Below are positions 8,342-19,653 of a stretch of DNA of 36,034 nucleotides, one piece after another. Position numbers and translations under genes: made by a program. This DNA comes from a virus. The stretch lies in IMG/VR virus record IMGVR_UViG_3300012532_000008, positions 1 through 36,034 of that record; one strand, 5' to 3'. Every line of letters starts with the position of its first letter. Positions within the stretch are counted from its first letter, which is position 1. The notes under the pieces are model-generated. The model was not told the DNA's origin. It saw nothing but the letters and a program-made list of their open reading frames with translations, and searched no databases.

Positions 8342-8514
8342 TATCGCCTCGACAGCGAGACGCCCACGAGCAGGAAGAGCCCTGCAATGGACGCAAGCAA
8401 GACCACGTCTGCCCAACTGAACCTGGATTTACCGGCGAGCACGTGTGCAGTGGCGAGCATGACGACCACCGCAATAATCACGTCGAGAGCGTGGCCGATG
8501 GGTCGATGGATCAT
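8341..8514 (-). CDS. Two-TM small membrane protein
   Basis: A 57-residue protein. I choose the ATG at 8514 because it overlaps the RecT stop as ATGA; a start five codons upstream is possible. It has two hydrophobic helices (~11-28 and ~38-53) around a short polar loop (GKSRFSW) and ends in Arg-Arg. The topology is holin-like, but the position inside the early recombination cluster argues against a lysis role. Function unknown. Confidence 0.6.
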   Translation of the reverse strand: MIHRPIGHALDVIIAVVVMLATAHVLAGKSRFSWADVVLLASIAGLFLLVGVSLSRR

Positions 8515-9536
8515 CGGCCGCCACCCCAATCGATCTCGTCTGCGGTGACCGGCGGTGCCTGGGTTTCGACCGTGGCTTCCCCGCCGGTGGTTCTGCCCGC
8601 GTCGACCCGGACCGCCTCTTTTGGCGTCGGCGTAGGGACGCGCATTGTCTGTTTCAGTCCTTCGAGCGCCTTGGTCGGCGGGGCGTTCGTGCCCTGTGTG
8701 GCCGCGGGATCCGCTTGCGGGATGACCATGCCTTCGATGTCGAAGTCCTGCCCCTCGCCAATGTCGGCCTGCTCGTCGAGAGCCATGGCGCGCGCGAGCT
8801 CCAGGGACGCTTTCGGTAGGTATTTGGCGATCTTCCGGATGCCGGTCTTGAGCGCCATTGGGACGTAGTCGGTCACCCAGGGCCCGTTGTCCTTCGCGCG
8901 CGAGCGGTTCCGGTGCCGTTCGACTTCCTCAATCTCCAGCACTTCCATCTGTTTCCCGCCGCCGCGCAGGCGAGCGACGACGTAGACGGCCCGGAGCTGC
9001 TCCTTCCACTCGGGCATGGGATTCCGCGGCCGGTGCACGATGCGGGGCTCGTCTCCGAACCAGAAGTCGAATTCGTCCGGAGTGCCGGCGGAGAACCCGG
9101 CCGGCCGCTTCGTCTTGGCGTCGATCGCGCCGGCCGTCATGCCGTTGTGCACGGACCGCGGGTGCATGTCCAGGGTGGAGCGCGCGCGGTCGACCAGGTT
9201 CCGATACCCCTGGTAACCGATGATGAGAGTGGCCTCCTTCACGGATTCCCATTGCCCATTGATCTGCTTTCGGGCGCTGAACGGGATGAGCCACGCCTCC
9301 TGCATGGGGCCGCCGAGTGTCAGCCCCAGCTTGACCGCTTCGAACGTGCCGCCGATGAGTGATTCCCTGGTGCACATCAGCAGGTCGGAGTTGTAGGCGA
9401 TCGCGTTGAAGGCGACGGCCAGGAGCCGCTGGGGGTCGAAGCCCTTCGGGGCCGCGCGCATCATCCGCTGCGCGTTGAGCTGAAAGAGTTTCTTGACGTC
9501 GTCGGATTGCTGAGTGAGCTGAACCAGTTGAGCCAT
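8511..9536 (-). CDS. recT: RecT-family single-strand annealing protein
   Basis: A 341-residue protein from the ATG at 9536 (GGAGAAAAAGT upstream; overlaps the preceding stop as TAATG). The RecT core is clear: an N-terminal helix region, LIGGTFEAVKLGLTLGGP near residue 60, AWLIPFSARK, then ATLIIGYQGYRNL near 103, a beta-rich centre with WKEQLRAVYVVARL, and PMALKTGIRKIAKYLP near 227. RecT anneals complementary single strands after 5' resection. The partner YqaJ exonuclease lies a few genes upstream. The last ~90 residues are Pro/Thr-rich and probably disordered, ending in an acidic IDWGGGR. Confidence 0.92.
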   Translation of the reverse strand: MAQLVQLTQQSDDVKKLFQLNAQRMMRAAPKGFDPQRLLAVAFNAIAYNSDLLMCTRESLIGGTFEAVKLGLTLGGPMQEAWLIPFSARKQINGQWESVKEATLIIGYQGYRNLVDRARSTLDMHPRSVHNGMTAGAIDAKTKRPAGFSAGTPDEFDFWFGDEPRIVHRPRNPMPEWKEQLRAVYVVARLRGGGKQMEVLEIEEVERHRNRSRAKDNGPWVTDYVPMALKTGIRKIAKYLPKASLELARAMALDEQADIGEGQDFDIEGMVIPQADPAATQGTNAPPTKALEGLKQTMRVPTPTPKEAVRVDAGRTTGGEATVETQAPPVTADEIDWGGGR

Positions 9537-9757
9537 TACTTTTTCTCCAGGTTGTGAACCAGACCGCAGCTCGGACACTGTCCGGCGATCCGGAGATGTG
9601 TGGCAGCCGGCGGGATCCATGTTCCGCAGGAACAGCGGAGGTAGCCGGACCCTTTCAGGTGGACGACGCAGAGCTTTTGTCCTGGCTCCGCGAGCGCCCC
9701 ACAGCGCCGATTCTCGAAAACCTTGCCTTTGCCGGCGTGCCCTTCACAGACCGCCAT
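9536..9757 (-). CDS. Small zinc-ribbon protein
   Basis: A 73-residue protein. The ATG at 9757 has GAGG six bases upstream and overlaps the preceding gene by 14 bases; an in-frame ATG at 9769 is an alternative. Cysteines occur as CEGH, RRCG, KLCVVH, RCSCG and CPSCG, which could fill two zinc sites. It is coupled to recT by TAATG and so is probably made with it. It may bind DNA or a recombination partner; this is unproven. Confidence 0.65.
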   Translation of the reverse strand: MAVCEGHAGKGKVFENRRCGALAEPGQKLCVVHLKGSGYLRCSCGTWIPPAATHLRIAGQCPSCGLVHNLEKK

Positions 9758-10357: not shown

Positions 10358-10449
10358 CGAACCCTCCGCCATTGAATCCAGAGCGTGACGCCGGTGGCCC
10401 ACAGAGCGCCCCAGCCGCAGCCAAGAAGAAACGCCGTCGTCGACGTCAT
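10354..10449 (-). CDS. 31-residue single-TM micropeptide
   Basis: This short frame has start and stop placed exactly by coupling: its ATG overlaps the YqaJ stop as ATGA, and its stop overlaps the next GTG as GTGA. GGGAAGGA lies about six bases before the ATG. The peptide is nearly all one membrane helix (residues ~5-26, Trp- and Gly-rich) with a QWRRVR positive tail. The coupling on both sides makes chance less likely. Role unknown. Confidence 0.55.
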   Translation of the reverse strand: MTSTTAFLLGCGWGALWATGVTLWIQWRRVR

Positions 10450-11453
10450 TGCGTGTCCTTCCCTTCGTCGTCGATCGGAATGTCGAGCTCCAGGGCGGAC
10501 CGCTTCCCCGGCGGCAGCGCTGGGCGCTTCGCCTCGAAGCATCGGAGCACGCGGAACGTGGTTTCCTTGGCGACGTATTCCCGGCGAGTCTGCGGCTTCC
10601 AGGTGTAGACCGTGCCGTTCGGCAGCCGGCCGCCGATGTTGTCCCCGATCGACATGCGGAGGACGTTCTCCGCAGCGTTCTTGCGGTTCTTCGCTTCGGC
10701 CACGGCGACCTTGGCGTCCTGCAGCTCGATGTGCACGTCGACCAGCTCCGGGGGAAACGCGACGATTTCCCCGGTCCCCGGCTTCCGGAACATCGCGTCG
10801 ATCGCGCGCTTCGTGGCGTCGGAGCCGTCCGGGACTGGCGGTTCCTGCCGGAGCAGGCGGCTCCAGAACTCGTCCTCCGCCTTGATGAGCAGCTCGATGA
10901 ATTCCTCGTCCCTTGGGATGTCGGCCCACACGAACCGGCAGCCGCCGATGAGTGCCGCGAGCGAGCCCCACTTCTCTCCGCTGACGGCAAGCTGGTGCTG
11001 GAGCTGGACCTGGAATTCGGCCGGCGGCTCCTGATAGTCGAGCCACGATTTGCCGACAAAGAAATGCGCGTTCTTGATTTCCAGTACGCCTTCGCCGTCC
11101 TCGGGGCGCTCCGGGTTGATGGTGTAGCGGTCGACCGATGCGACCATGAATTCGACGGTGCGCGAGCGGGCCAGGGTGAACGTGCCTGGCAGCCGCGGGT
11201 TCCTGACGGAGCGACCGGTTTCGAGCGCGTAGCGCTGGGCGATCGGCTCTTCCAGGATGTTGCCCCACTCGATCTGCTCGTTGTCGCCCTTGGTTGGCAT
11301 CTCCAGACCCAGCTTTTCCCGATAGAGCTGGAAGGCCGATTTGTAGCGGGAGATCCCCAGGATGGCCGGCGCGTCGGACGAGCCGATCCCCAGCGTTCGG
11401 CGGGCTTCGAGCCACTCTTTGCGGGTTGGAACGACGATTTCTTCAGTCTGCAT
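10446..11453 (-). CDS. yqaJ: YqaJ-like viral recombinase exonuclease
   Basis: A 335-residue protein with YqaJ/lambda-exonuclease motifs in order: an N-terminal LGIGSSDAPAILGISRYKS near residues 21-39, WGNILEEPIA with Glu near 68, a central ASVDRY with Asp108, and the catalytic EIKNA (Glu125, Lys127) of the PD-(D/E)XK core, followed by QVQLQHQLAV. These enzymes resect one DNA strand to give single strands for RecT. It lies upstream of recT in the same transcript, the usual pairing. The C-terminal ~120 residues contain a coiled-coil-like segment and are less conserved. Confidence 0.9.
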   Translation of the reverse strand: MQTEEIVVPTRKEWLEARRTLGIGSSDAPAILGISRYKSAFQLYREKLGLEMPTKGDNEQIEWGNILEEPIAQRYALETGRSVRNPRLPGTFTLARSRTVEFMVASVDRYTINPERPEDGEGVLEIKNAHFFVGKSWLDYQEPPAEFQVQLQHQLAVSGEKWGSLAALIGGCRFVWADIPRDEEFIELLIKAEDEFWSRLLRQEPPVPDGSDATKRAIDAMFRKPGTGEIVAFPPELVDVHIELQDAKVAVAEAKNRKNAAENVLRMSIGDNIGGRLPNGTVYTWKPQTRREYVAKETTFRVLRCFEAKRPALPPGKRSALELDIPIDDEGKDTQ

Positions 11454-15080: not shown

Positions 15081-15773
15081 TCAGAATGAGTCACTGGCGT
15101 CGATCGTTTCCTCGCTCTTCTTTGGCGCGAACCGCTCCGGGCAGTCCGCGATGTCGCAGAACCGGCATTCACTTTCACTCGGCGCGCGCGGTGGCTCGGT
15201 GTCGGCGCCGATGAGGGTCAGCGTCGACCAGATCGCTTGCTGGGCCCTGTCGTCGAGCTCGCCCGGCGGGATCGGTGACGTCTTGCCGCGGTATTCTACG
15301 GCGCCCTCTACGGTCAGCCCTTTGAGCTTTTGCCGCGCCAGCGACAGCATGTAAATCAAGACCTGCCAGCGGTCGCTGCGGCGTTCCTTCCCGCTCTTCT
15401 CGTCGAAAATGACGGCGCGCGCACCCTTCACGGCGACCAGGTCCGGCTTGCCGGCGAGAGTCGCGGCGCGCCCTTCGAGTTTGAAGCTGTTGGCTTCCTC
15501 CAGGGTCACCGCCCAGCCGTCAGCCTCCAGGAGCTTCCGGCGGTCCTGAACCATCTTGTTGTGCTCGCGGGTCCATGTGCTCCGGTCGAAGTTGTCGTCC
15601 CGGTCGCGCTTCGCGTAGCGGTAATGGGACTTGAACCAGGCCGCCCACTGACAGGAGCTGCCAGCCAGCAGCGGAGTCGCCCAGGAGACCCATATATAGG
15701 GCCGCCGCCGCCGGCTGTTCCGGACGTCATCGCCAAGCTGTTGATCGCCGCCCAGCGGTAGCTGATTGCTCAC
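15081..15773 (-). CDS. Cas4/RecB-like PD-(D/E)XK nuclease with Fe-S cysteines
   Basis: The GTG at 15773 is chosen because it overlaps the upstream stop as GTGA and has GGGGAGG before it, giving 230 residues. Visible motifs are Cys41, a core GKPDLVAV with Asp111, VIFDEKSGK (Asp124, Lys126), RWQVLIYML (the QxxxY motif at 137-141), and a C-terminal C-x2-C-x4-C at 203-211. One N-terminal cysteine plus a C-terminal trio is the 4Fe-4S signature of Cas4 and AddB-like nucleases. No CRISPR array or other cas gene is in the window, so this is a phage recombination nuclease rather than an adaptation module. Confidence 0.82.
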   Translation of the reverse strand: MSNQLPLGGDQQLGDDVRNSRRRRPYIWVSWATPLLAGSSCQWAAWFKSHYRYAKRDRDDNFDRSTWTREHNKMVQDRRKLLEADGWAVTLEEANSFKLEGRAATLAGKPDLVAVKGARAVIFDEKSGKERRSDRWQVLIYMLSLARQKLKGLTVEGAVEYRGKTSPIPPGELDDRAQQAIWSTLTLIGADTEPPRAPSESECRFCDIADCPERFAPKKSEETIDASDSF

Positions 15774-15955
15774 CTGAACCTCCCCGGGTTGTCGATTCGC
15801 CCGTTTCGGTCGCGCTGGCGGTTGCTCTCCAGGCAGGCGGCCAGATACCAGCCCACTCCGGCGATCGCGGTCAGCGCTCCACCGAACGACCAGGGCACCG
15901 GCGCCGCCATCATAACGATCGCGCCGATGACGATGAGAGCTGCGCCAAATCTCAT
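15770..15955 (-). CDS. Two-TM small membrane protein
   Basis: A 61-residue protein; the ATG overlaps the upstream stop as TGATG, with GAGGG upstream. Two hydrophobic helices (residues ~4-19 and ~26-42) are followed by a basic, polar C-terminal tail (NRQRDRNGRIDNPGRFR). It is coupled to the Cas4-like nuclease by GTGA. One of several small membrane proteins in the early cluster; function unknown. Confidence 0.6.
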   Translation of the reverse strand: MRFGAALIVIGAIVMMAAPVPWSFGGALTAIAGVGWYLAACLESNRQRDRNGRIDNPGRFR

Positions 15956-16554
15956 CAATCCCTCGGGTCGACAGTGCCGACAAGGCCGGGCACCGCGTTG
16001 GGTGTCGGCACTCCAGCCGGGTCGTCGTTGACGTAGTTACGGGTTCCCCTGAGCGTTACGCGCTCGCTGGGGGCCTGGGGGTATTCGCCGGCTTGGGGGA
16101 ACCCGACGAGCTCCGCCGCCGCCGCGTCCAGGGCGTTCCGTAATTTGGCGTTCTGGACCTGTAGCGTCTTGAGCTGTCGATCGCGCTTCTCGGCCCTCGA
16201 TGGTGTCTCAGGGCTCGGCATCGCATCGCCGCCGTAGCCGTTGAAAACCGTTTTCAATGCCTGGTATCCGTCGCTGTCGACCCGGAGGTTCGCGCTTCGG
16301 TAGCCGCCTTTCCCGTCCGGTTCGGTGATCGTCAGCTTCAGCGCTTGCTGGTTCGGCTCCTGGGCGATGACCAGGCGCCCCCATCCCTTCGTTGACGGAA
16401 TCCCGTAGACGTGGGCCGCCCGGCAGAGCGTAAGGCGCGCCGGCTCGGTTTCGTTGTCGCTCGTGTCGGCGGTCATTACTGGGGCCGTGTCGTCGTCCCA
16501 GGTATCGCCGGTCCTGGAGCTGGTCATCATCGGTTCCGCTGCTGTCTCGTCCAT
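15955..16554 (-). CDS. Hypothetical protein downstream of an RNA pseudoknot
   Basis: A 199-residue protein whose GGGGAA site follows a possible pseudoknot directly. The first ~40 residues are acidic and Thr-rich. Residues ~42-115 look ordered (LTLCRAAHVYG, GWGRLVIAQEPN, LKLTITEPD, ANLRVDSDGYQALKTV), and residues ~122-150 form a coiled coil. The Pro-rich tail is disordered. No family recognised. It is the fifth gene of the run that starts with the AAA+ ATPase, so it may belong to that system. Confidence 0.65.
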   Translation of the reverse strand: MDETAAEPMMTSSRTGDTWDDDTAPVMTADTSDNETEPARLTLCRAAHVYGIPSTKGWGRLVIAQEPNQQALKLTITEPDGKGGYRSANLRVDSDGYQALKTVFNGYGGDAMPSPETPSRAEKRDRQLKTLQVQNAKLRNALDAAAAELVGFPQAGEYPQAPSERVTLRGTRNYVNDDPAGVPTPNAVPGLVGTVDPRD

Positions 16555-16616: not shown

Positions 16617-17543
16617 CTACTCGTCCAGGTTGTAGCTACGCCCGCCGGTGACAACCAGGCGATCGAGCTGTGTTTTTACCTCGGTGAACCGCGCGCGCGT
16701 GGCGTCTCGAACCGCCCGGGAGTTTCGGAGAGCCCGCGGCGTCACGCCGGCCAGGAGCGCGCGCGCCTCGTCGACAACCCGCTGCAGCTCGGCATCGTCC
16801 GCGATGTCGCGGGCCTTGAAGTTCGAAAGGAATTCGTCCAGGTTCTCAACAAGCGAAGCGTTGAACCGCTTCCCCTTGCCGCTGGCGTCCGGGGTCAGCC
16901 GATCGACCATGTGATCGACCAGCTCCGCGACTTCCGCGCGCAGCACGTTGCGCGACTCGTCCAGCACGGACTGCCATTGACTCGCGGCCTTCTCCTGCTC
17001 GCGGGCGAAAATGTCGCCGCGGATGCGCTCTAGGCCGGACGGGGCGCCCAGGGTGAAGTAGCGAACCTCCGCGCCAAACGTCTCCCGGACGCGCTCGACC
17101 GTGGGGTATTCCTCCGCCCGGAAGTGTGGGCCCAGCCGCCGGCGCGCCTCGTCGACGCTGCGATCGTAAACGCCCAGGAATTCGGGCACGAGCACGCGCG
17201 CCCGCTCGTCCAGGCGCGCCCGCAGCTCGTCGTCGACGGGCCCCAGCAGCTCATACGAGATCATGTAAACCCCGCTGCGGAAGAGGGCCGGGCCGCTCAC
17301 TTTGGTTTCCAGCCACCGGCGGATCGCGCCGTCGTGCTTGCGGATGGCGTCCAGCTCCGGCGCGTCCAAGAGATCCTTGGAAACGTGGATCATCTCGGCG
17401 TCGGATTCGACGCCCGGCTTCAGGTCGCCAACGTTCATCTTGCGTTTCGTTCCCAGGCGCCGGAGCTCCAGGGAGAGGCAGGCGGCGCGCTCGAAGATCG
17501 TAGCGGCCGGGGTTGCGGCGTCGAGGATGGCGGTTGCGTTCAT
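16617..17543 (-). CDS. DUF3150-like helical protein next to AAA+ ATPase
   Basis: A 308-residue protein; AAGGAG lies ten bases before the ATG. It is almost entirely helical: an N-terminal LSLELRRLGTKRK, then LDAIRKHDGAIRRWLETK, a short LFRSGVYMIS strand, FLGVYDRSVDEARRRLG, and long C-terminal helices. The layout resembles DUF3150, which often accompanies MoxR-type AAA+ ATPases in phages and integrative elements; this match is tentative. It ends in RSYNLDE, like two other proteins of the cluster. Its neighbours, the AAA+ ATPase and two small Ycf35/DUF2997-like genes, support a shared complex. Confidence 0.6.
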   Translation of the reverse strand: MNATAILDAATPAATIFERAACLSLELRRLGTKRKMNVGDLKPGVESDAEMIHVSKDLLDAPELDAIRKHDGAIRRWLETKVSGPALFRSGVYMISYELLGPVDDELRARLDERARVLVPEFLGVYDRSVDEARRRLGPHFRAEEYPTVERVRETFGAEVRYFTLGAPSGLERIRGDIFAREQEKAASQWQSVLDESRNVLRAEVAELVDHMVDRLTPDASGKGKRFNASLVENLDEFLSNFKARDIADDAELQRVVDEARALLAGVTPRALRNSRAVRDATRARFTEVKTQLDRLVVTGGRSYNLDE

Positions 17544-17578: not shown

Positions 17579-17776
17579 TTACTTCTGCTCGATGTGTGTA
17601 TGGCTGTGCGTGTTGCCGTGCGCGTGCGGGCGGCGCTGCCTGGTGGCCTCCCCTCCGGTCAGGCGCGCGAAGTCGTTCATAAAGGCTTCCGCGCTCTGGT
17701 GATTGGCGGGGCTGATCGGGCTCGTTTCCGTCTTGATGGTCCCGTCAGCCAGGATCTCGATCTTCATCTCGTCCAT
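17579..17776 (-). CDS. DUF2997-like small protein with His-rich tail
   Basis: A 65-residue protein with GAGG before the ATG. Residues 4-25 (MKIEILADGTIKTETSPIS) resemble DUF2997, whose members begin with two strands and a Gly turn and are usually followed by an Ala/Phe helix, here SAEAFMNDFARLTGG. DUF2997 genes typically lie beside DUF1257 (Ycf35-like) and Ycf46-type AAA+ ATPase genes, which is the case here. The last ~15 residues contain five histidines (PHAHGNTHSHTH), a possible metal-binding tail. The family call rests on pattern and context. Confidence 0.6.
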   Translation of the reverse strand: MDEMKIEILADGTIKTETSPISPANHQSAEAFMNDFARLTGGEATRQRRPHAHGNTHSHTHIEQK

Positions 17777-17778
17777 GG

Positions 17779-18102
17779 TTACCTCTTCGTCACGGCGTAG
17801 CTGTTGGTTCCGGTTTGCTTCAGCGTCCAGCCGTTGCGCGCGGCCGTCGCCTGCACAACCTGGTGGCTGTATGCGGTCTTGAGCCGATCGGCGGCGCGGC
17901 CGACTTCCTCCGCGCTCTGCCCGTCGCGGCCGCTCAGCCGGCCGTTTTGGAGGACGTAGTCCGATCCGTCCAGGGTGAAGTAGACCGTCGCGCCGGCGGT
18001 CCTGACATTGGTAACACCCAGGGCCTTTAGGCCCCGGGTGAGCAAATCCGGGTGCATTTTCGGCATGTCAACCCGGTTGATGATGACGCTATCGCAGGGC
18101 AT
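17779..18102 (-). CDS. DUF1257 / Ycf35-like protein
   Basis: A 107-residue protein starting four codons after the ATPase stop. It has the Ycf35 layout: an N-terminal strand, then LLTRGLKALGV, a beta segment around VYFTLDGSDYVLQNGRLSG, a helix ending DRLKTAYSHQVVQATAARNGW (family form: AYxxxxV...A...G), and a closing NSYAVTKR strand. In cyanobacteria and plastids Ycf35 is conserved but poorly understood, and bacterial DUF1257 genes cluster with AAA+ ATPases and DUF2997. Function unknown; a substrate or adaptor for the ATPase is plausible. Confidence 0.65.
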   Translation of the reverse strand: MPCDSVIINRVDMPKMHPDLLTRGLKALGVTNVRTAGATVYFTLDGSDYVLQNGRLSGRDGQSAEEVGRAADRLKTAYSHQVVQATAARNGWTLKQTGTNSYAVTKR

Positions 18103-18105
18103 CGG

Positions 18106-19653
18106 TTACGACTCCATGAAACGGCGTTTTGCGGTCCCGGTCGGCCCGTCCGCCGGGTGCGTGTAGGGCCCGACGTGCGAAGCGCTCAGGAACTTCCCCG
18201 CGGCCGCGCGCCGGAGCCGCTCGATTGAATCGGGATCGCTGACCGACACCGGCACGATCCGCCGCGCCATCTCCGCGATCGGCTTCCGCATCTCGAACGC
18301 CAGCCGGCAGACGTTGCGAACCTCGGCGCCCGTCCAGCCCTCGGACAGCTCTAGCAGCTCGTCGAGGTTCTCGCCCTGCAGCCCATAGCGCAGCAGGTTG
18401 ATCGTCCAAATCGGGTGCAGTTCTTCGCGCGTCGGCACGTCGAAAAACCAAATGCCGTGCACGAACCGGCGCCGCAGCTCCGGCGGCAAAACATCCAGCT
18501 TGTTGCACGTCGCCACGAAATACGCGCCGCTGCCGGCGATCGCCTTGATGACCTTCATGGCTACGCGGATGTTTTCCTCCGACTGCCCGACAAGCGAGCC
18601 CTTCAGCGCGCCGAGGTCCAGCTCCAGCGTCGGCACCTGGTGCGACCGGCCGAGGGTCTTGCTGTAGATCGACTTGCCGGATCCAGGGGGCCCGACTGCG
18701 ATGAGCCCGCGCCATTCGTTGTCTTCCATCTCGCGGAGGATGACGCCCAGCGCATCCTGGCTGACCCCGGAGCTGTCCGCGATCGCGCCGCTTGCGCCGG
18801 CCATGTGCTTCTCGATCTCGTCGATTCGAATGATGGCGCGCGGTGGGAGCGAGCCCTCAAACATCTGCCGGCCGTGCTCCTTCGCCGCTTCGAGCCCGCC
18901 GACGTCGTCAAAGGTTTCTCGCCCGTTGTCGAACTTCAGCCCGCGCGTCTGCTGGACGAACGCCTTCTTGCGGCTCCAGAGCTGATCCAGGTCCAGCCGC
19001 TTATCAGCCGCCGCCAGACTCATCGCCGTCGACTGCTCGACGGGGAACACAGCCAGCCCGCTGAGCGCTTCAACGGCATGGCGGATCGTCTCGTCGTCCG
19101 GCTGCGCCATGTCCTTGGTTGCCTCGCGCGCGAATGCGATTTGCTCGACAACGATCGCGCGAATGACGTCTTCGCCGGGCAGCGGTTCGTCAAACGTCAT
19201 GACGTCTTGCTGCAGCTCGATCGGAAGCTGCATCACTGGCCCCAGCAGCACCAGCGTCCGCTGGTTCTCCTTGAACAGCTCGCGCAGGTTCATGACGCCC
19301 TGCAGCACGGCCGGCTCGTTGAAAAAGCGCTGCGCGTTCAGCAGGAACAGGATCGTCCGCTGCGGGAGCTTCGTTGCCATCGTCAGCGCTTCGATCAGGT
19401 TCAGCCCGGGCGTCTGACCGGGGAACGAGTCGGCTGGCATAATCGCCTGAATCGCCGGCTGCCCCTGGTCGTTGACGGGCATAAACCCGCGGCAGCAATC
19501 CCACTGCACGATCGGCGGGATCTTGGTGGCGTCGGCGTAGCTCTTGGAAATCGTCGCCATCGTGGCCCATTGGTCGGCGGTCGAGATCGCCACGAGCGGC
19601 GTTGACACCTTCCGGGCGGTTTTCAGAAGATCAGTGATCATGTCCTCTCTCAT
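18106..19653 (-). CDS. Ycf46-like AAA+ ATPase with permuted Walker B before Walker A
   Basis: A 515-residue protein; ATG preceded by AAAGGAACCGCCG. Residues 1-240 resemble the degenerate N-terminal ATPase domain of Ycf46, including TLVLLGPVMQLPIELQQD near 133-150. The C-terminal AAA+ domain has all motifs in an unusual order: DVGGLEAAKE (~250), then Walker B IIRIDEIEK (~274-282) with its following helix, then Walker A GPPGSGKS (321-328), LDLGALKGSLVGQSEENIR (~345), sensor-1 VATCNK (~380), arginines at PPELRRRF (~391) and a sensor-2-like GWTGAEVRN (~439). Walker B and helix 3 therefore precede the P-loop, with no frameshift or break. Remodelling activity is inferred. Confidence 0.85.
   Translation of the reverse strand: MREDMITDLLKTARKVSTPLVAISTADQWATMATISKSYADATKIPPIVQWDCCRGFMPVNDQGQPAIQAIMPADSFPGQTPGLNLIEALTMATKLPQRTILFLLNAQRFFNEPAVLQGVMNLRELFKENQRTLVLLGPVMQLPIELQQDVMTFDEPLPGEDVIRAIVVEQIAFAREATKDMAQPDDETIRHAVEALSGLAVFPVEQSTAMSLAAADKRLDLDQLWSRKKAFVQQTRGLKFDNGRETFDDVGGLEAAKEHGRQMFEGSLPPRAIIRIDEIEKHMAGASGAIADSSGVSQDALGVILREMEDNEWRGLIAVGPPGSGKSIYSKTLGRSHQVPTLELDLGALKGSLVGQSEENIRVAMKVIKAIAGSGAYFVATCNKLDVLPPELRRRFVHGIWFFDVPTREELHPIWTINLLRYGLQGENLDELLELSEGWTGAEVRNVCRLAFEMRKPIAEMARRIVPVSVSDPDSIERLRRAAAGKFLSASHVGPYTHPADGPTGTAKRRFMES

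Follow-up and report, generated by a model that had tools for sequence, protein, structure and literature searches.

The window analysed here, the whole of a 36-kb virus record (IMG/VR IMGVR_UViG_3300012532_000008, 36,034 nucleotides, 65% G+C), encodes a Ycf46-like tandem AAA+ ATPase of 515 residues (P0001) in which two segments of the second AAA+ domain (D2) have exchanged places. The usual AAA+ order is β1 (Walker A)-β2-β3 (Walker B)-β4 (sensor 1)-β5; in P0001, β3/Walker B-α3 comes first, followed by β1/Walker A-α1-β2-α2 and then by β4/sensor 1, giving β3-β1-β2-β4-β5. This rewired variant of a very common enzyme fold has been retained by evolution in at least 75 distinct phage proteins. Most probably, P0001 is a phage Ycf46-type tandem AAA+ ATPase whose D2 was transposed once in an ancestor, with the sheet intact and the ATP site complete in cis, and which is a probable ring remodeller working with its operon partners. 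We also consider it likely that an AAA+ domain of new connectivity (5-2-4-1-3), still able to hydrolyse ATP, was fixed once in nature and diversified across a large phage clade, and that the constraint on the P-loop Gly was released and the residue repeatedly lost. The AAA+ fold is one of the commonest and best-studied enzyme folds, and domain databases and sequential aligners treat its motif order as fixed. A natural transposition that keeps every catalytic residue offers a direct test of how folding and catalysis depend on chain connectivity; the family also bears on how rearrangements become fixed, and on the reason why the P-loop must otherwise have its glycine.

The ATPase is read from the minus strand (19653-18106) in one unbroken frame of 515 codons, and 75 distinct relatives share its order; a plus-strand reading of 18106-19653 was dropped, as no such protein is encoded there. 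A 396-aa open frame lies antisense to the gene (18415-19605, plus strand) and is probably a mere effect of high G+C. All following coordinates of the ATPase are on the minus strand. Residues 1-240 (18934-19653) form a degenerate AAA+-like domain (D1) that lacks Walker A and has the canonical strand order, as judged from the AlphaFold2 model and its match to p97 D1-D2; canonical relatives have a first AAA-like domain of the same kind. An alignment-defined linker with a conserved GG (residues 252-272; 18838-18900) leads into the moved β3-α3 segment (residues 273-312; 18718-18837), which holds the Walker B motif DEIEK (residues 278-282; 18808-18822) upstream of Walker A. The β1-α1-β2-α2 segment follows (residues 314-374; 18532-18714), carrying Walker A, GPPGSGKS (residues 321-328; 18670-18693), and a putative pore-loop-1-like GSLVG (residues 352-356; 18586-18600), assigned from the alignment and canonical AAA+ topology. 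Both segments were delimited by profile tiling and the AlphaFold2 model. Beyond them lie β4/sensor 1 (residues 376-385; 18499-18528), the putative arginine finger R396 (18466-18468), and a lid or sensor-2-like region (residues 406-498; 18160-18438), seen in the model and matched by Pfam AAA_lid_3 at E 1e-4, under the gathering score. The motifs named in the sequence-only reading are all present in this frame: IIRIDEIEK at 274-282, SSGVSQDALGVILREMED at 294-311, GPPGSGKS at 321-328 and VATCNK at 380-385.

A profile of canonical-order Ycf46-like D2 domains, built from 68 canonical relatives, matches P0001 only in three separate pieces: residues 314-373 align to profile positions 6-65, residues 235-312 to 31-106 (the Walker B part to approximately 65-106), and residues 376-449 to 109-185. 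In most of 18 permuted proteins, such pieces cover the profile side by side and hardly overlap (in L011, for example, 7-67, 66-107 and 110-185). When the two segments of P0001 were swapped in silico, a single full-length match of 167.7 bits was obtained, where the best single piece had scored 63.1 bits; the swap likewise gave one match of 112-169 bits in 18/18 permuted proteins tested, versus 31-66 bits for their best pieces. A Walker B-like motif 50-70 residues past the P-loop is found in 61 of 64 canonical relatives, versus none of the 75 distinct permuted proteins. Pfam AAA (PF00004) aligns to residues 319-371 of P0001 only and ends where Walker B should come; permuted AAA+ proteins are thus a class that order-bound profiles detect merely piecewise. 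Together, these comparisons point to a rearrangement far beyond chance. The claim made from the bare sequence, that Walker B and its helix had moved ahead of Walker A, is therefore upheld by the tiling, the swap and the relatives alike.

Because the pieces tile the profile and the swap restores one match, the event reads as an exact exchange of [β1-α1-β2-α2] and [β3-α3] with the flanking parts unmoved. In a circularly permuted P-loop NTPase, the old termini are joined and new ones opened inside the domain; here, the linker before the exchanged segments and everything from β4 to the lid after them keep their canonical places. The N-terminal domain, linker, sensor 1, arginine finger and lid stand in canonical sequence; hence, as the earlier reading had it, this is a segmental transposition and no circular permutation. 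At the DNA level, the simplest explanation would be a tandem duplication with subsequent loss of the outer copies; leftover duplicated segments, as intermediate forms would carry, were not seen in the aligned sets.

The nearest annotated relative is gp103 of Tunturi 3 (PP885686), a cultured podovirus (isolate described in PMC11924767), with 38% identity over its length and the same permuted order (WYDEIEK, GVPGVSKS, FATCN). This member makes the permuted ATPase experimentally accessible. An alignment of P0001 and the Tunturi 3 protein served as query in a first scan of viral contigs, which yielded 80 loci. In 18 of them, Walker B lies 39-45 residues ahead of Walker A, a clean split from the other loci, nearly all weaker, where it lies approximately 59 residues past Walker A wherever both motifs were recognised. 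A second scan with the 18 permuted proteins as query returned permuted proteins at all of the best 80 loci, 78 recognised by motif and two (L111 and L112, with SPPGCGKT) by eye. Removal of near copies left the at least 75 distinct proteins, whose median pairwise identity is 40%. When a divergent member (P0023) was used as query, the top matches were all permuted and canonical loci that were already known. A genome scan with the two-row alignment retrieved one permuted-family relative (L174, 33% identity, on an 8-kb MAG contig, its Walker B unconfirmed by motif search) and one canonical relative (L175); carriage in cellular genomes looks rare. Plasmid matches with 80-86% coverage are canonical, with no permuted one among those read. 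Among the canonical proteins, L004:1479-3056 (MK448457, Streptococcus satellite phage Javan368) encodes a Ycf46-like ATPase annotated just as hypothetical, and the 783- and 785-aa frames of L055 and L057 carry approximately 250 additional N-terminal residues. A canonical query found no second Ycf46-type ATPase in the twelve phage records searched; the phage of L105 also encodes a further AAA ATPase (L209:315-1904), which has the canonical order and belongs to another kind.

In a D2-domain tree of 75 permuted and 64 canonical proteins, one branch separates the two orders (SH-aLRT 99), and in a tree of the N-terminal part only, which the event left untouched, one branch again does so (SH-aLRT 98); both trees are quick searches run with no bootstrap. 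Each tree covers a different part of the protein and needs a single change of order, so the permuted order appears to have arisen in one event, and the family to be monophyletic. We infer that the permuted order is the derived state, because the canonical one is general among AAA+ proteins.

The moved domain keeps the catalytic outfit of an AAA+ ATPase. P0001 has a Walker A of the form GxxxxGK[ST], a Walker B of the form hhhhDE, a sensor 1 Asn, the putative arginine finger R396 from the alignment, and the C-terminal lid. K327, G356, T382, N384 and R396 are invariant in the 75 permuted proteins, and none of them was fixed by the search patterns; D278 and E279 of Walker B are likewise in 75/75, although the DEIEK motif belonged to the patterns of both scans, so that its invariance is partly by construction. 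The earlier statement that the Walker residues, sensor 1, arginines and sensor-2-like region are kept is borne out for P0001. The residue before the P-loop Lys behaves otherwise: it is Gly in all 64 canonical relatives, versus Gly in 37, Ala in 32 and Ser in 6 of the 75 permuted proteins, and the tree requires a minimum of 16 changes at this site. From these counts and changes, the strict P-loop glycine appears to have been lost repeatedly after the transposition. P0001 itself retains Gly at residue 326 (18676-18678), and the homologous sites vary in L094-L173. In the 38 members without it, the loss may reflect a changed P-loop backbone or may go with weaker nucleotide binding.

Such losses would also suit a regulatory or structural pseudo-ATPase, one that keeps its fold and its partners but has lost ATP hydrolysis, all the more as D1 is already without Walker A. 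A pseudo-enzyme would be expected to lose some of its catalytic residues, however, and Lys327, Asn384 and Arg396 (unbiased by the search), together with the Walker B Asp and Glu (search-biased), persist in 75/75 proteins; we therefore regard this explanation as unlikely. The permuted ATPase is probably an active protein remodeller.

An AlphaFold2 model of P0001, built with 17 natural permuted sequences, has a pLDDT of 83.6 and a pTM of 0.77, with pLDDT of 91-92 around β3 and β1. Its elements are β3 at 273-277, α3 at 297-311, β1 at 315-320, α1 at 327-337, β2 at 342-345, α2 at 357-373, β4 at 377-383 and β5 at 401-403; the linkers between α3 and β1 and between α2 and β4 are thus approximately 3 residues each. 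A canonical relative folded likewise (L026, pLDDT 88.7) has β1 at 243-248, β2 at 269-272, β3 at 302-306 and β4 at 345-351. Over both domains, the permuted model matches p97/Cdc48 with Z 19.2 (401 residues, rmsd 5.6). The permuted D2 alone matches p97 D2 over 201-203 residues at 2.5-2.6 Å (chain 6g2v: 203 residues, 2.6 Å, Z 17.2), versus 225 residues at 2.1 Å and Z 23.4 for the canonical control on the same chain. This shortfall is what would be expected if a sequential aligner drops part of the moved segment. The core is predicted to be ordered and to resemble p97 and Vps4. The sequence-only reading had allowed for another Walker B after residue 328; the predicted α/β core is ordered, and no second Walker B occurs past that residue.

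The AAA+ sheet is parallel, has the strand order 5-1-4-3-2, and is built with right-handed crossovers. The three new junctions in P0001 would be short loops, all at the same edge of this sheet, and the new crossovers β3-α3-β1 and β2-α2-β4 would keep the old direction, each skipping one strand. For these reasons, the canonical sheet could form unchanged with linkers of approximately 3 residues, β3 would lie between β2 and β4 as in known AAA+ topology, and the connectivity by sequence order would become 5-2-4-1-3. Walker A, Walker B and sensor 1 would thereby be brought together in cis, and the next protomer would supply the arginine finger, as is usual. D1 would be a nucleotide-free scaffold, whereas rings of D2 would form, hydrolyse ATP, and thread or remodel polypeptide via the GSLVG pore loop.

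Alternatively, the transposition may be real and the moved β3-α3 may complete the next protomer's ATP site, in a fixed domain swap in which the exchanged segments hold the ring together. Walker B now lies on an N-terminal arm joined by a linker, and a monomer prediction is blind to placement in trans; yet the approximately 3-residue linkers on either side favour an adjacent strand in the same sheet, and the monomer model is confident there, which makes an arrangement in trans quite unlikely. That an assembly, recombination or cloning artefact misordered the segments of this metagenomic contig is vanishingly improbable, given that 75 distinct proteins, drawn from many metagenomes and an isolate genome, show the same order at a near-constant spacing of 39-45 residues; relatives with this order, including that of cultured Tunturi 3, rule out an assembly error.

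Several features place P0001 among the Ycf46-like proteins: the tandem arrangement, an N-terminal domain without Walker A, top BFVD matches to Ycf46-named phage proteins, and homology of both D1 and D2 to canonical members by tblastn and profiles, with D2 matches in 18/18 tested. Ycf46-type AAA+ ATPases of phages, plasmids, cyanobacteria and plastids (Rhizobium phage L338C AHC30467.1 and Javan368 QBX09687.1, for example) likewise combine a degenerate D1 with a second domain that has all D2 motifs, and share the DUF1257/DUF2997/DUF3150-type neighbours of the permuted family; they differ in the order Walker A, β2, Walker B, sensor 1 and in always having Gly before the P-loop Lys. The classical remodellers p97/Cdc48 (D1-D2), Vps4, spastin and fidgetin are the best PDB matches, resembling P0001 in tandem arrangement and D2 fold as predicted, but with approximately 15-20% identity, canonical connectivity and other N-terminal adaptor domains. 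Circularly permuted GTPases of the RsgA/YjeQ and YlqF type are working P-loop NTPases with motifs in non-standard order; in these the chain ends move, whereas P0001 keeps its ends and exchanges two internal segments of an AAA+ domain. The best phage family match, PHROG 8638 (E 8.5e-44), has no assigned function and matches P0001 in four separate stretches, which suggests that this profile, too, follows the canonical order. Assignment to the anti-phage ATPase IetA/IteA was rejected, as only weak generic AAA+ matches were obtained. A literature search of limited coverage found no earlier report of a permuted or transposed AAA+ domain. What is already known is the family and, probably, the class of function; the chain topology seems to be new.

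The window also encodes a terminase, a portal, a major head protein, RecE, RecT and a replication-initiation-like protein, and is therefore a tailed-phage fragment or small genome. The ATPase gene heads an operon, with three genes downstream on the same strand: a 107-aa DUF1257 (Ycf35)-like partner (17779-18102), a 65-aa DUF2997-like partner (17579-17776) and a 308-aa DUF3150-like partner (16617-17543). Pfam scans with the three single sequences were negative, and the window's own 107- and 65-aa proteins join their DUF families solely by profile comparison (family profile against DUF1257-like family, hhalign 92% and E 6e-7; against DUF2997-like family, 88% and E 3e-6). Among 89 permuted loci, near copies included, the 308-aa family occurs in 80, the DUF1257-like in 73, the DUF2997-like in 74 and all three in 65. 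The partner-family profiles match annotated DUF1257, DUF2997 and DUF3150 genes beside the canonical ATPase L089 (E 2e-26, 5e-14 and 8e-34, respectively), and on this basis the permuted ATPase occupies the same kind of operon as its canonical relatives. From this neighbourhood, the three partners may be adaptors or substrates during infection.

In cyanobacteria, a duf2997-ycf35(DUF1257)-fed7 cluster is known (PMC4284462); a radical-SAM-like protein with a single 4Fe-4S cluster is encoded in some of the phage operons (L041:5173-5811; L090, L092), which may be compared with the ferredoxin of that cluster. A family of approximately 105 aa with the motif ASHVEP ... MSP[IV]GGP lies downstream in 43/89 permuted loci (e.g., L018:5610-5867). 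In several phages, HNH/AP2-like endonuclease genes, probably homing and identified by eye, lie between the ATPase and its partners (L015:5045-5722, L016:4539-4988, L016:5640-6170 and L020:4706-5146). Downstream of the operon in the window is a PD-(D/E)XK/Cas4-like nuclease gene (15081-15983, minus strand), and the RecE-like (10446-11453) and RecT-like (8511-9620) genes are on the same strand; the proximity of these three genes hints at early-phase work.
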